DNA of 64,000 nt from Magnetococcales bacterium (GTDB lineage Bacteria > Pseudomonadota > Magnetococcia > Magnetococcales > Magnetaquicoccaceae). Positions within the stretch are counted from its first letter, which is position 1, and each line of letters opens with the position of its first letter. The notes below the pieces were generated by a model. It was not told the DNA's origin and did no database searches. It saw nothing but the letters and a program-made list of their open reading frames with translations. The position numbers and the translations under genes were made by a program. Shown here in pieces: positions 568 through 6,503 of this stretch. The stretch spans positions 1 through 64,000 of the forward strand of contig JADGAZ010000012.1 in the NCBI GenBank assembly GCA_015231755.1, written 5' to 3'.

Positions 568-1443
568 TTATTCACCTTGTAAACTTTTCTTATCATAATA
601 TTTGAATCCTTTTTTTATCCACTCTTGATCTTCTGGATCATCTCCATGGGGAGGTGATCCATACCATTCACCCCATTCCTTTTTGGACGTCCCAGCGTGC
701 CCCTGTGCCTATCCTGCGCCTCTGAGTAAGATCTTTTCTGGAATTCCTAATGCTTTTCCTGTGGCCCCATAATTGAAGTTACCAAAATTTTGAAATTTTC
801 CATCTCGTTGCTTAAAGTCCCAATCCCCCTTGTTTATAACTTTCTTGTAAAACCAATGCCAATCATTTCTATGTCTTGCGGCCTCTTTAATATTATCATC
901 AATACTGACATCTTCTGGTTCATGCTCTGGCTTTTCGGTTGTGATTTGTGTACCAGATTTTGAATAATTTCCATTGCATGTTACATATCTTATGCCAGCG
1001 TTGTTTGTCCTTGTCCAGCATTGAAAATATATAGAGTCAATTTTAGACTGAAAGATGTCAGATGTAATATTATCAAGTTCTTCTCTTTCAAGTGAAAAGT
1101 ATTCGTAAATACTAAAAGGAGTCAATTCAGAAAGACGTCTCAAGTCTTCATGGGATTCACTTGTCAAGAATGCTCTGTTTGGGCTTATCGGAGTGATTTG
1201 CATGTCTGACAATATATTATTGAAACAAATTTTTTCTTGATCGGGCTTGTTGATATTTAAAAATTTGTTGTACATACGCATTCCAAGTTCAACTCTAACA
1301 ATTGCTGCAATTAAAATAATCGATTTTAAATTTATATTTTTGGTAATATTAACTTCAATCAACAATCCGTAAGACGTGCTAATGCGTATTTCAAGATTAC
1401 CACATGTCGATTTTTGATGCAAATGAAACATGGCAGCCTCCAA
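568..1443 (-). pseudogene. polymorphic toxin type 44 (Ntox44-like) gene interrupted by one in-frame amber codon
   Basis: The frame from 1443 gives 244 residues and stops at TAG (709-711). The same frame stays open for 46 more codons to a TAA at 568-570. The last residues before the stop (WHWFYKKV, GDWDFKQ, FGNFNYGATGKALG, LLRGAG) and the residues after it (AQGHAGTSKKEWGEWYGSPP, then GDDPEDQEW) together make one continuous C-terminal domain that I recognise from memory as bacterial toxin type 44. In that family the residue after LLRGAG is normally Trp, so TAG is a one-base change from TGG. The N-terminal 150 residues are not recognised. Composition is much more A+T-rich than the genes to the right, which suggests transfer. 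It is probably an inactivated toxin, possibly tolerated because no immunity gene is visible. Readthrough or amber suppression, or a sequencing error, are the alternatives. Confidence 0.72.
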
Positions 1444-2104: not shown

Positions 2105-3322
2105 TTAGAACCATCCATCCAGAGACCGGGCCACCCGTTTGACCGGCGGAAACTGGTTGAAGGCCAGACCGTGGGCCTGGAACCAGGGGGAGTGTTCCAG
2201 CAGGGGGATCAACTCGGCCCGTTTGTTCAAGGTGCGGTCGATGCCCACTACCAGCGGGGGCGGGGTGGTGATGTGGTCGAGGCGGTTCAAGCGGCGGGGC
2301 AGTTGACTGGCGTGCCAGCGGTGAAACAGTTCCAGATGGGCCAACATCCCGCTTTGATGGCGGAAACTGAAATCCGGCACCACCAGTTCCTGACGCCCCA
2401 GATCCAGCAGGGTGGGATGGGGCAGAATTTCCCATTCCGGGATCTCTTTTTGGAACTGAGCGGCGAAGGTGACGAACTCCTCGGGGATGTAGGTGGCCAC
2501 CCGACTGAAATGGGCGTGGAGACCGCTGGTTTCATCGAGTTCCAGGGAGGCGGTTTTGCCATCGATGCGGGTGGTGGCCTGGAGTTTCCAGCGGGACAGC
2601 CCGCAGACCGCCGGCAGAAAGGCGGCCAGCTTCAAGCCGTATTTGCGTTGCACGTCGAACAGGCTCAAGGGGCCGTCCAGTTCCAGGGTGAAACCGCCGA
2701 CGGCGTGGGGGTCGTGGGTGACGGTGGCCAACAGTTGAAACCATTTCAGGTATTGAAAGAAAGTCCTTTGTCGTCCCGGATCCGGCTCTTGCATGCGGAT
2801 GGTCAGCCGATCGGCCCAGAAAAGCGGACCCTGGGCCATGGCCATGTTGTAGCGGTGCAGCAGGGCTTCGGGTTCGATGGGGTCGAAGGCGATCAGGGGT
2901 TGACGGTCCGGGAGGTCGGCGTGGAGATCAAGGGCCAGTTGATCCGGATCCGCGCTTTGCATCGTCTGGGCCACGGCCTGACGAAAGGCTTCCAGATCGT
3001 TCATGCGGGGGGCTTTCAGATGGAGGGCCGCCGCCGCGAACGTGGCGAGACGACGCTCTTCCAGTCCCTCCAGGGATTCCCGAAAGGTGCAGCGGTCCAG
3101 CAGCAGCTTGTTCAACCCTTTGGCCACCAGCGGGGAGCGGAAGGCGTTGATGCGGGGCATGAGGGTTTCACTCAGCTCTTCCCGGCTTTGACCTTCCGCG
3201 GCGGCGTAGATCAGGGCGAGATCCCGGGCGAAGGTGCGCAGCAGTTCGTTGGTGGGATCGACAAAACGGGGCAGAATCTTGCCGCCCCGATGGTCGAAGC
3301 GCAGCAGTTCCCGATTCAACAC
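2105..3322 (-). CDS. Bax1-like nuclease (DUF790), partner of XPB helicase
   Basis: This 405-residue protein belongs to the DUF790 family, whose archaeal members are Bax1, a structure-specific nuclease that binds XPB helicase. The start is GTG at 3322: a GGGGAG ribosome site lies 7 bases upstream, and the product begins MLNRELLRFDHRGGKILPRF, the usual DUF790 opening. A C-terminal PD-(D/E)xK-like pattern is visible: VVPDFSF (PDF at 316-318) followed by AHLELFHRW (Glu at 331), at the position where the archaeal family has its catalytic acid pair. The first 7 bases overlap the end of the helicase gene, so the two are translationally coupled. Expected role: incision of DNA opened by the helicase, in a nucleotide-excision-repair-like process. 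That function is known for archaea and only inferred here. Confidence 0.82.
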   Translation of the reverse strand: MLNRELLRFDHRGGKILPRFVDPTNELLRTFARDLALIYAAAEGQSREELSETLMPRINAFRSPLVAKGLNKLLLDRCTFRESLEGLEERRLATFAAAALHLKAPRMNDLEAFRQAVAQTMQSADPDQLALDLHADLPDRQPLIAFDPIEPEALLHRYNMAMAQGPLFWADRLTIRMQEPDPGRQRTFFQYLKWFQLLATVTHDPHAVGGFTLELDGPLSLFDVQRKYGLKLAAFLPAVCGLSRWKLQATTRIDGKTASLELDETSGLHAHFSRVATYIPEEFVTFAAQFQKEIPEWEILPHPTLLDLGRQELVVPDFSFRHQSGMLAHLELFHRWHASQLPRRLNRLDHITTPPPLVVGIDRTLNKRAELIPLLEHSPWFQAHGLAFNQFPPVKRVARSLDGWF

Positions 3323-4722
3323 GCTTGGTCTCCCCGTTGATAGGCCGAGTGCTGACGGCGGCGTTCGCTGGTGAAGGTTTCGGCGGTGTCTTGCGAGACC
3401 AGTTCATACAGAATGGCCTGTTTGCCCTCCCGGGGGCGGAGCAGGCGTCCCAGACGTTGCACATGTTCCCGGATTGAGCCGCTGCCCGACACGATAATGC
3501 CCACGCTCACCTCGGGCAGATCGATTCCTTCGTTGAGTACCCGTGAGTTGACCAGAAAAGGAAACTCCCCGGCCCGAAAGCCGTCGAGAAAGCGGCTGCG
3601 CTCGGAGAGTTTCGTCTTGTGGGTGATGACCGGCAGGAAAAAGGTCTCGCCGATGGCGTAGGCGGTGGCATTGTCGTCGGTGAACAGCAAAGCCCGTTCG
3701 TGGCGATGGCGGCGCATCAGGGTCCAGACCATGCGCAGCTTGGCGCGGGAGGCCCGGGCGAGTCGTTTTTGCATGCGATAGGCGGCCATGGCGGCCCGGC
3801 CCTCCTTGGAGCGGCAGCACACCATGATGAACTGGCTCCAGCCCGCCGGACGGGAGAGATTGACCCCGGTGGAACGGGCGAACTCCCGGTATTGGGCATA
3901 GGCGGCGTCGTAGGCCAGTCGCTCGTCGGGGTCGAGGGTGACGGGGATCCGTTCCAGCCGATAGGGGGCGAGAAAGGCGCCTTCCAGATCGGCAATCTCG
4001 CAGCGATAGACCAACGGGCCAAGCAGATGGAACAGTTCCTCCTCCTGGCCATCGGCCCGTTCCGGGGTGGCGGTGAGTCCCAGCCGGTAGGGTGCGACGC
4101 ACATCTGGGCCGCCAGACGGGTGGTGGTGGCGGGAAGATGATGGCATTCGTCGCAGACCAGCAGGCCGAAGCGGGCGCCGATGCGCTCCATGTGGATGTA
4201 GGCCGAGTCGTAGGTGCTGACGGTGATCGGTTCCAGTTGGTACTCTCCACCTCCCAGCATGCCGATGGGCATGCCGAAGGCCTGACCGAGCTGTTCATGC
4301 CACTGTTGCACCAGATTGATGGTGGGGGCCAGAATCAGGGTATCCCGCTGGATGCGGGCGATGGCCATGCGGGCCACCAGGGTTTTGCCCGCGCCGGTGG
4401 GCAGGACCACTACCCCCTGGGAGGCGGCCTTGACCCAGGCGTCGAAGGCGGCCTGCTGGTGGGGTCGGGGCGGGTGATCGTTGTGGCTGAGGAACTGGCG
4501 GGGTTGAAAGGCCCGGGCCAGATCCTCATAGGGAACTTTCGCCCGGTGCAGGGCCAAGACGATGGGACCGTAGTGACGGGCTTCGGCCCGATGGCACTCC
4601 AGGCGGTCATCCCAGCGCAGCAGCGGGGCAGCCGGTTGCAACGCCTCGGTGGGACCGGTGACGAGCAGGGTGCCCTGATCGAAGGTGATGCGGATCATGC
4701 GGGGGGTTCTAGGGGTGGTCAT
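3316..4722 (-). CDS. XPB/Rad25-type superfamily 2 DNA helicase
   Basis: A 468-residue helicase with an XPB layout. The N-terminal region (IRITFDQGTLLVTG, about residues 10-23) resembles the damage-recognition domain of archaeal XPB. Walker A is PTGAGKT (108-114), motif II is DECHH (191-195), motif III is TATPERADG (217-225), and motif VI is QRLGRLLRPREGK (about 422-434). XPB unwinds short DNA stretches and, with Bax1, forms a helicase-nuclease unit. The gene overlaps the nuclease gene by 7 bases and begins 14 bases inside the VanZ-like gene, so the three probably share a transcript. The start at 4722 has only a weak ribosome site; Met9 (4698) is an alternative. A generic ResIII-type helicase is the fallback assignment, but the DUF790 neighbour favours XPB. 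Confidence 0.85.
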   Translation of the reverse strand: MTTPRTPRMIRITFDQGTLLVTGPTEALQPAAPLLRWDDRLECHRAEARHYGPIVLALHRAKVPYEDLARAFQPRQFLSHNDHPPRPHQQAAFDAWVKAASQGVVVLPTGAGKTLVARMAIARIQRDTLILAPTINLVQQWHEQLGQAFGMPIGMLGGGEYQLEPITVSTYDSAYIHMERIGARFGLLVCDECHHLPATTTRLAAQMCVAPYRLGLTATPERADGQEEELFHLLGPLVYRCEIADLEGAFLAPYRLERIPVTLDPDERLAYDAAYAQYREFARSTGVNLSRPAGWSQFIMVCCRSKEGRAAMAAYRMQKRLARASRAKLRMVWTLMRRHRHERALLFTDDNATAYAIGETFFLPVITHKTKLSERSRFLDGFRAGEFPFLVNSRVLNEGIDLPEVSVGIIVSGSGSIREHVQRLGRLLRPREGKQAILYELVSQDTAETFTSERRRQHSAYQRGDQAC

Positions 4723-5284
4723 CCGGGCGTCGGATCATGACCCCGAACCACAACCCGCAAGCCGCGCCGACTCCATTCATGCCCACGTCCCGCAGATCGA
4801 AATAGCGGTTGGGGAGGATCCATTGAATGGTTTCGTCGGAAAATCCCGCCATCACCACCGCCAGGTAACACCAGAGCAATCCCATGCCGCTCGGCTGTCC
4901 CATGGCCCGGAACACCAGAAATGCCAGAATGCCGTATTCCAGCAGATGGACCCGTTCCACCGGGTTGTCCATGTAGGAGGCGACCCCGAGAATGGCCATG
5001 AAGGGGAGCAGGGCCGTGAACCGTCTCGCGGCGTGGATGCGGCGGAACATGATCCAGACCACGCCGATCAGGATGCATAACAAGACGATCGAGATGATCA
5101 ACCCGGTTTCCCGTTTGCCGATGAGCTTGAAGGCGGCCTGGGAGACCAGGGGAGTGAGGGGCAGGGTCAGATAGATGGTGAGCATGTAGCCCGCCACCAA
5201 CGCCCAGCGGGGACCCGGATAATGGATGTGCAGATATTTGGGCAGGTCGATGAACCGGACCAGTCCGAGAAATGGATTTTTCAT
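4709..5284 (-). CDS. VanZ-like membrane protein
   Basis: A 191-residue membrane protein of the VanZ-like family. ATG at 5284 (MKNPFLGLVRFIDLP) was chosen because the 50 upstream residues look non-coding and a GGGGA site precedes it. Hydrophobic segments lie at about residues 25-45, 55-75, 85-105, 115-135 and 165-185. A conserved acidic helix (GFSDETIQW) is typical of the family. VanZ itself is linked to glycopeptide tolerance, but most chromosomal VanZ-like proteins have no known role and no resistance genes are near. It is first in the unit with the XPB helicase and Bax1 nuclease; I see no functional link. Confidence 0.75.
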   Translation of the reverse strand: MKNPFLGLVRFIDLPKYLHIHYPGPRWALVAGYMLTIYLTLPLTPLVSQAAFKLIGKRETGLIISIVLLCILIGVVWIMFRRIHAARRFTALLPFMAILGVASYMDNPVERVHLLEYGILAFLVFRAMGQPSGMGLLWCYLAVVMAGFSDETIQWILPNRYFDLRDVGMNGVGAACGLWFGVMIRRPDDHP

Positions 5285-5414
5285 GGGCCATCCCCATCGA
5301 TGCGGGTCGCGGGGATGGGGATGGCCGTGCGTGGCCCGCCAGGGGAGAAAACATGGGGATTGGCAATCATGGAATGCTTTCCGATCTCTCGCGGGCATTG
5401 AGGTTGATGAGGGA

Positions 5415-6503
5415 TTAACCTTGAGTCCGTTCAAATTCCTGCATGAAGGTGATCAGGGCATCCACCCCTTCTTCCGGCATGGCGTTGTAAATGGAGGCGC
5501 GCATGCCTCCCACGGAACGATGACCTTTCAGGGTGACCAGTCCGGCGGCTTTGGCACCGGCCAGGAAGGCGTCGGTCAATTCCGGCTTGGCCAGGGTGAA
5601 GGGAACGTTCATGCGGGAACGGCTGATCGGTTCCGTGGGGCACAGATAAAACGCCGAGCTGTCGATGGCGGCGTAGAGCTTGTTGGCCTTGCGGATGTTG
5701 TGTTGTTCCATGGCCGTCACGCCGCCTTGCTCTTTGACCCATTCCAGCACCAGTCCGAGGATGTAGATGGCATAGGTGGGGGGAGTGTTGAGCATGGAGC
5801 CTTCCTTGGCCAGGGCCTGGAAATCCAGCATGCTGGGCAGATTGGCTTTGCGACCCATCAGATCCTTGCGGATGATCACCACGGTGACGCCGCTGGGACC
5901 GAGATTTTTCTGGGCGCCGGCGTAGATGATGCCGTGTTTCGAGACATCCACGGGACGGGAGAGGATGTTGGAGGAGGCATCCACCACCAGGGGGACGGAA
6001 CCGGTATCCGGGAGATAGGGGTATTCGGTGCCGAAGATGGTGTTGTTGCTGGTGATGTGAACGTAGGTCGCATCGGGATTGAGGGTCAATTCCTGCTGGG
6101 TGGGGATGCGGCTGTAGTTGACGCTTTTGGTGGAGGCGGCCACTCGCACATCGGAGAAGATTTTTTTGGCTTCGGAGCAGGCTTTTTCGGACCAACTGCC
6201 GGTCATGACGTAGTCGGCGGACTGGCTGGCGGGATCGGTGATGAGGTTCATGGGGATCATGGAAAATTGCAGCGAAGCCCCCCCTTGCAAGAAGAGGACG
6301 GCATAGTCGTCTCCGATGCCCATGATTTCCCGCAGCAGGGATTCCGCCGCGGCGATGATGGCCATGTAATCCTTGGAGCGATGGCTCATTTCCATCACCG
6401 ACATGCCGGAACCCCGGTAATCGATCATTTCATCTCTGGCCCGTTCCAGGACAGGCAGAGGAAGGACGGCGGGTCCGGCACTGAAATTGAAGACACGTTT
6501 CAT
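5415..6503 (-). CDS. serC: phosphoserine aminotransferase
   Basis: A 362-residue PLP enzyme that converts 3-phosphohydroxypyruvate and glutamate to phosphoserine in serine synthesis, and also acts in pyridoxal phosphate synthesis. The start MKRVFNFSAGPA at 6503 is the standard SerC opening, with a GAGGAG site upstream. The PLP lysine is Lys199 in YAGAQKNLGPSG. Further family motifs are GGASLQFSMIPMNL (74-87) and VGGMRASIYNA near the C-terminus. Length matches the family. SerA and SerB are not in the window. The long open frame running further upstream on this strand is not part of the gene. Confidence 0.96.
   Translation of the reverse strand: MKRVFNFSAGPAVLPLPVLERARDEMIDYRGSGMSVMEMSHRSKDYMAIIAAAESLLREIMGIGDDYAVLFLQGGASLQFSMIPMNLITDPASQSADYVMTGSWSEKACSEAKKIFSDVRVAASTKSVNYSRIPTQQELTLNPDATYVHITSNNTIFGTEYPYLPDTGSVPLVVDASSNILSRPVDVSKHGIIYAGAQKNLGPSGVTVVIIRKDLMGRKANLPSMLDFQALAKEGSMLNTPPTYAIYILGLVLEWVKEQGGVTAMEQHNIRKANKLYAAIDSSAFYLCPTEPISRSRMNVPFTLAKPELTDAFLAGAKAAGLVTLKGHRSVGGMRASIYNAMPEEGVDALITFMQEFERTQG

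Follow-up and report, generated by a model that had tools for sequence, protein, structure and literature searches.

The locus described here lies in the window, the whole stretch of 64,000 nucleotides from a Magnetococcales bacterium that was analysed, and comprises a gene for an XPB helicase followed by a gene for a Bax1 (DUF790) nuclease, with these features:

4709..5434, minus strand: VanZ-like membrane protein, overlapping the start of XPB with its 3' end (14 bases)
3316..4722, minus strand: XPB helicase of 468 residues, ATG start, of the short archaeal type with a DRD, a pair of helicase domains and a thumb
4138..4152, minus strand: XPB motif II, DECHH, residues 191-195
3316..3322, minus strand: overlap of the XPB and Bax1 reading frames, 7 bases
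2105..3322, minus strand: Bax1 (DUF790) nuclease of 405 residues, class B as defined below, GTG start
2372..2374, minus strand: codon of Bax1 Asp317 (D305 of the A. fulgidus protein, AfBax1)
2330..2332, minus strand: codon of Bax1 Glu331 (AfBax1 E318)
2321..2323, minus strand: codon of Bax1 His334, the mark of class B (Gly in class A)
2312..2314, minus strand: codon of Bax1 His337, a residue without variation in class B
2291..2293, minus strand: codon of Bax1 Arg344, a position that is Lys or Arg in class A

The original prediction had recognised an XPB-Bax1 pair with a 7-base overlap at these positions, and both reading frames, the Pfam assignments and the PDB matches confirm it. The GTG start of Bax1 is backed by the alignment of its first two residues, M1-L2, which are nearly invariant among relatives. 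Because of the overlap of the VanZ-like gene with the XPB start, these three genes are probably read as one transcript at this locus; a VanZ-like gene has been identified upstream of the pair in just 5 of 68 loci. Downstream of Bax1, an ORF of 244 residues (709-1443, minus strand) carries at its C-terminal end a partial Ntox44 domain (PF15607, model positions 36-70 of 104), and with this middle third of the domain only, the ORF looks truncated.

XPB is a central helicase of repair and transcription in archaea and eukaryotes. The XPB of the window contains three Pfam domains above cut-off, namely XPB_DRD (1.3e-16), ResIII (1.6e-27) and ERCC3_RAD25_C (1.5e-17). The best PDB chains by sequence are the XPB of A. 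fulgidus (AfXPB, 2.4e-102) and XPBII of S. tokodaii (3.5e-94). The alignment with AfXPB spans residues 24-465 with few gaps and covers the thumb region, and the protein thus has the archaeal-type DRD, two helicase domains and thumb. The long bacterial XPB, known from Mycobacterium tuberculosis and represented by the NCBIfam equivalog NF045503, shares the helicase core but has a longer N-terminal domain and is described as lacking the DRD and the thumb in PMC3353954. The XPB of the window scores 230.4 bits with this equivalog, below the cut-off of 610.

The RED motif reads RAD in this XPB. Its Arg and Asp are kept in all 42 XPBs of Magnetococcia, and the middle letter is variable elsewhere too (RED in A. 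fulgidus, RDD in S. tokodaii). The Arg is missing from 11 of the 17 XPBs of the Lentisphaeria group (L110, L111, L113, L114, L115, L117, L119, L121, L122, L123 and L125) and is kept in all 88 XPBs outside this group. Several XPB matches appeared to contain one in-frame stop, and recoding of XPB was considered and rejected, as in the matches re-read with tblastn the stop lay at the protein end or at the very start, or disappeared. In six pairs of Magnetococcia genomes both genes are under purifying selection, with dN/dS of 0.02-0.13 for XPB and 0.07-0.21 for Bax1.

Bax1 belongs to DUF790 (PF05626; 6.3e-67, 226.5 bits against a Pfam cut-off of 28.8). Its PDB matches by sequence are the Bax1 chains of P. 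furiosus (8gy8_A, 5.9e-20) and A. fulgidus (6p66_B, 1.3e-11), together with S. tokodaii Bax1. With the archaeal Bax1 equivalogs of NCBIfam, NF053694 and NF053695, it scores 87.3 and 67.1 bits against a cut-off of 500, and by these scores it is a relative and not the archaeal equivalog itself. An AlphaFold model was built from 62 aligned sequences (61 of 75 listed relatives were supplied; L155, L162 and loci of deviating length had been excluded beforehand) and has a pLDDT of 91.3 and a pTM of 0.76. A Foldseek search with this model gives eight matches below 0.001, all of them Bax1 chains, and VIA-align superposes it on five Bax1 entries with Z of 24.7-28.3 over 361-369 residues. The next rows among those listed by VIA-align cover single domains: MunI (7.6) and MUS81-EME1 (6.0) on residues 279-405, and Cas2 (5.7) on 171-265. 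Such single-domain values prove little alone, yet they agree with the domain plan published for Bax1 (PMC7293015). The predicted structure thus has the full-length Bax1 fold, made up of an N-terminal part, a Cas2-like part (about 170-265) and a nuclease part (about 279-405). In the model Asp317 lies just ahead of the strand 318-322 and Glu331 inside the strand 327-333; His334, Trp336 and His337 follow this latter strand, and Arg344 is placed within the helix 341-350.

The nearest named relatives are encoded in metagenome-assembled genomes of Magnetococcales, one of which (L097) has a Bax1 90% identical to that of the window. A search with the window Bax1 covered 61 genomes. Of the 48 that belong to the order, the host's own among them, 42 encode it; the 13 from elsewhere gave no match. 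In 398 genomes of the phylum, a Pfam search for DUF790 likewise identified 42 with Bax1, all within these 48, and none among the 350 outside the order (336 of which are not itemised). Of the 48 genomes, 44 have a complete or nearly complete XPB, the one in G031 being interrupted where its contig ends; in G007 and G046 there are weak helicase matches only, and in G022 and G026 no XPB match. Both genes are present in 41 of the 48. Among the searched genomes of the order, Bax1 was not found in G015, G017 and G031 although XPB is present, and G007 has Bax1 without a full XPB. UvrC, a core repair gene, is encoded in 43 of the same 48 genomes (42 above cut-off), and the pair is about as common in Magnetococcales as UvrC.

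The conserved layout claimed by the original prediction is also borne out, as XPB directly precedes Bax1 on one strand in 32 of the 41 genomes with both genes. The gap between them is at most 69 bp in 31 of these and 231 bp in one, and the reading frames overlap in 19, in 14 of them by 7 bp. In nine genomes (G009, G011-G014, G016, G020, G021 and G025) the two genes are on separate contigs, yet both are kept; the separation in G021 may be a mere assembly break, because both genes lie at contig ends. Five of the nine, G011-G014 and G016, represent one genus of the window's family, and their Bax1 is longer, about 425-448 residues. The co-occurrence throughout the order, together with the conserved layout, suggests that the pairing is more than chance.

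The pair has been regarded as best known from archaea, and it proves less archaeal than assumed, with representation in several bacterial lineages. When one genome per species was scanned, 206 Bax1 relatives emerged, of which the best 80 were kept. Nineteen of these are from Magnetococcales and the remainder mainly from Lentisphaeria/Victivallales, Myxococcota and Competibacteraceae. Among the 61 loci outside Magnetococcales in this best 80 of 206, XPB precedes Bax1 on the same strand in 53 (within 250 bp in 49, overlapping in 33), seven have no XPB in the available stretch and one has XPB on the opposite strand. Bax1 is encoded by 114 of the 148 genomes in the class to which a Lentisphaerae genome belongs, and by 51 of 117 in the phylum of Myxococcus xanthus, whose own Bax1 is of class B; both counts are for Bax1 as a whole, irrespective of class A or B.

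Earlier accounts drew a narrower distribution. In 2005 DUF790 was reported as almost confined to archaea and cyanobacteria, beside SSL2-like helicases (PMC1189080). In 2012 an XPB-Bax1-like complex was described as not yet identified in bacteria, XPB was said to occur in few if any proteobacteria, and the DRD and thumb were treated as archaeal (PMC3353954). The Deinococcus XPB (DRA0131) is mentioned in tables and in passing, and two phage papers (PMC8590004, PMC7868345) each name XPB-Bax1 once. We recognised no description of a bacterial Bax1, or of a bacterial class with an altered site, in the literature searched, which left most subscription papers outside. Thus the family, the XPB-Bax1 pairing and the helicase-nuclease role are already known, and a bacterial class with a putatively altered site appears to be new.

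This class has been identified in an alignment of 111 Bax1 sequences, comprising 40 of Magnetococcia, 68 of other bacteria and haloarchaea and three archaeal PDB chains (the row "Ta" in alignment and tree is P. furiosus Bax1, 8gy8; the partial Bax1 of G010 and G032 are absent). The position of His334 is His in 79 of the 111, referred to here as class B, and Gly in the other 32, referred to as class A. Class B comprises 40 sequences of Magnetococcia, 18 of the Lentisphaeria group (which includes one record titled Verrucomicrobia and one titled "uncultured bacterium") and 21 of Myxococcota. It may extend beyond these three groups, because the best 80 of 206 relatives were kept and were selected for their similarity to a class-B query. 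Asp317, Glu331, His334, Trp336, His337, Arg344, Pro280 and Pro392 are invariant in all 79 members.

The predicted active site is one point at which class B departs from its archaeal relatives. The column of AfBax1 E274 is Glu in 26 of 32 class-A sequences and Phe, Val, Ile or Leu in all 79 of class B; the window Bax1 has Phe283 in this column and Val284 in that of E275. E275 is the published motif-I residue, varies in both classes, and its neighbour E274 is the one conserved in class A. Of the acidic triad of AfBax1 (E275, D305, E318), the window Bax1 retains D305 as D317 and E318 as E331. In comparison with archaeal Bax1, EI[VA]GFWT is replaced by ELFHRWH and Lys344 by Arg. At the N-terminal site reported for AfBax1, D133 is Asp in all 111 sequences, and E135 corresponds to Pro138 in the window Bax1 and is Pro in 71 of 79 class-B sequences. 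The XPB partners differ as well: motif II is DECHH in all 80 XPBs of the class-B groups, and its third position in the 25 other XPBs is Val in 13, Ala in six, Cys in four and Glu in two.

Absence of the nuclease residues had been named as an observation that would speak against the original prediction. The result is divided, since the Asp of motif II and the Glu of motif III are kept in 79 of 79 class-B sequences within a Bax1 fold and the Glu of motif I is gone. One alternative is that class-B Bax1 has ceased to cut and plays a structural part, keeping XPB at forks and adjusting the ATPase of XPB, as archaeal Bax1 does besides cutting. The loss of the motif-I Glu throughout the class would fit such a role, and so would the rate of change on the stem of class B, which is highest in the nuclease part (0.65 per site, against 0.33 in the N-terminal and 0.15 in the Cas2-like part). 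Class A also contains sequences without one of the catalytic acids: the Glu331 equivalent is absent in three of 32 and the Asp317 equivalent in two. These are the bacterial records L126, L135, L137, L140 and L163, in which the Asp317 equivalent is replaced by N or T, or the Glu331 equivalent by V, V or D, and inactive or altered Bax1 may occur there. A dead site, however, would have no need of Asp317, Glu331, His334, His337 and Arg344, which are invariant in 79 of 79, and we regard a non-cutting Bax1 as rather improbable. Class-B Bax1 most likely still cuts, by means of a changed active site.

Phylogeny of both proteins, which had been proposed as a check, supports the unity of class B. The split of the classes is a single branch in the Bax1 tree (SH-aLRT 100), the clade persists at 99 in a tree built from the regions that precede the nuclease domain, and the partners of class B form a single clade in the XPB tree (97). 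Both trees have the same inner order, Myxococcota-B first and then Lentisphaeria with Magnetococcia, and the matching clades and order suggest that the two genes travelled together. The trees are unrooted and give no direction for any transfer between archaea and bacteria. Under one shared model, the class-B stem measures 0.39 for Bax1 and 0.17 for XPB, a moderate excess that ranks third among 94 branches; the larger contrast from separate gene trees mixes two models. Branch lengths of the two genes, compared with L163, L141, L154 and L135 left out, correlate with r 0.88 over 94 internal branches, a value unusable as proof of co-evolution because a single tree served for fitting both genes. 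With a single origin, the changes of class B mark a lineage and not repeated covariation.

To identify partners of the pair, we clustered 562 neighbouring ORFs from 68 loci of Magnetococcia, the Lentisphaeria group and Myxococcota of class B, with some genomes represented twice. Beyond XPB and Bax1, found in 57 and 48 loci, no ORF family occurs in more than 13 of the 68. One cluster of ten loci across the three groups consists, in those members whose coordinates were compared, of reverse-strand ORFs of the pair itself, and another, also of ten loci, is mostly from Magnetococcia. A damage-response signal was sought with four LexA-like (SOS box) patterns in 38 upstream stretches, many shorter than 300 bp, and a single distant match, 279 bp upstream, was found in one of the 38 loci.

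Pairs are also encoded on plasmids. Forty plasmid records contain Bax1, including 11 of Deinococcus, and the other names among those listed are haloarchaea; in seven inspected records the reading frames of XPB and Bax1 overlap, six times by 14 bp and once by 1 bp. The Deinococcus plasmid pairs, such as that of D. psychrotolerans (L081), resemble that of the window in being bacterial, in their adjacent overlapping genes and in an XPB about 45% identical; they differ in their class-A Bax1 (EIVGYWR), their plasmid location and their overlap of 14 or 1 bp. Occurrence on plasmids of Deinococcus and haloarchaea, and the restriction genes that lie a few kb downstream in D. psychrotolerans, could suggest a module that defends against foreign DNA or restricts it. 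The XPB also matches PbeA models of PADLOC (best 1e-51) and other restriction helicases, but AfXPB is a far better match, and Bax1 matches no PADLOC model. The near-universal and not patchy occurrence in the order and the lack of any further ORF family in more than 13 of 68 loci also argue against defence, and of 87 pattern matches on viral contigs none was confirmed as a viral relative. A role in defence is thus very improbable.

The host had been expected to possess UvrABC, and UvrA, UvrB and UvrC are each above cut-off in the window's genome. UvrC is above cut-off in all 13 Bax1-bearing genomes checked outside the order. In the genomes of L108, L111 and L118 (G398-G400), which belong to the Lentisphaeria group and encode XPB-Bax1, the UvrC frames are 490-527 residues long and skip model positions of about 232-365. 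XPF is the partner that in archaea accounts for the other incision. A search for XPF/ERCC4 in 14 good genomes from the order found none, and its four archaeal controls were positive.

These observations bear on the proposal that the pair is a second, independent route of excision repair, in which XPB would open UV or bulky lesions and Bax1 would incise them in parallel with UvrABC. Archaeal XPB-Bax1 is known to grip forks, open bubbles and cut DNA (PMC7293015 and PMC7672443), and bubble cutting of this kind, like the core status of the pair in Magnetococcales, would be in keeping with such a route. A complete UvrABC and the absence of XPF from the 14 genomes argue against it. The proposal is further weakened by the genetics of Halobacterium NRC-1, an archaeon with a class-A XPB-Bax1 pair on its plasmid pNRC200. 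Within 3 hours, uvrA, uvrB and uvrC mutants of this strain are reported to repair neither CPDs nor 6-4 photoproducts, and no further dark-repair path was seen by the authors (PMC1590041). As NRC-1 has both systems and its uvr mutants lack dark repair, XPB-Bax1 is no stand-in for UvrABC on UV lesions in that archaeon; the result may not carry over, because its pair is of class A and the archaeon has two rad25 genes. A second excision-repair route therefore seems unlikely.

We consider it reasonably probable that XPB-Bax1 of Magnetococcia is a helicase-nuclease for forks and bubbles that acts beside UvrABC with a changed, class-B site, and not a second route for UV photoproducts. A structure-directed task is favoured because the NRC-1 pair does not replace UvrABC on UV lesions. 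The two genes would be co-translated to give one machine, in which XPB would grip the junction of double and single strand at a fork or bubble and open the DNA with ATP. The N-terminal domain of Bax1 would dock on XPB, its Cas2-like domain would meet the opposite arm and its PD-(D/E)XK domain would cut. Complex formation, ATPase coupling and the cutting of forks and bubbles are carried over by analogy from the published archaeal work (A. fulgidus 6p66; S. tokodaii 6p4o and 6p4f), where the same two proteins occur with the DRD and thumb of XPB, the three parts of Bax1 and the catalytic Asp and Glu. The present pair differs in its bacterial host, which has UvrABC and in whose order no XPF was found in 14 genomes, in the DECH of XPB motif II and in Pro138. 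Its nuclease belongs to a separate bacterial class that keeps the catalytic Asp317 and Glu331 and has lost the motif-I Glu. For class B we infer both activity and substrates; the latter are expected to be bubbles, flaps, stalled forks or sites of blocked transcription that UvrABC handles poorly, and the machine would work without XPF.

A more far-reaching interpretation, which we put forward tentatively, is that the PD-(D/E)XK nuclease has been rebuilt in class-B Bax1. Two His and an Arg (E-x-F-H-x-W-H ... R) would have taken the place of the acidic ligand of motif I and of the migrated Lys, giving the bacterial helicase-nuclease a chemistry and a DNA target of its own. Three bacterial lineages would have inherited this enzyme as a unit with an XPB of the DECH-box type. 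If true, the unit, near-universal in at least one order, would serve an as yet unnamed housekeeping task such as the processing of forks, R-loops or blocked transcription.

Comparison of the two classes provides a natural way to learn which nuclease residues are important. A bacterial order with UvrABC has the pair in its core, two further groups commonly have it, one of them including the cultivable Myxococcus, and the role of prokaryotic XPBs alongside UvrABC becomes testable by gene deletion in a laboratory bacterium.
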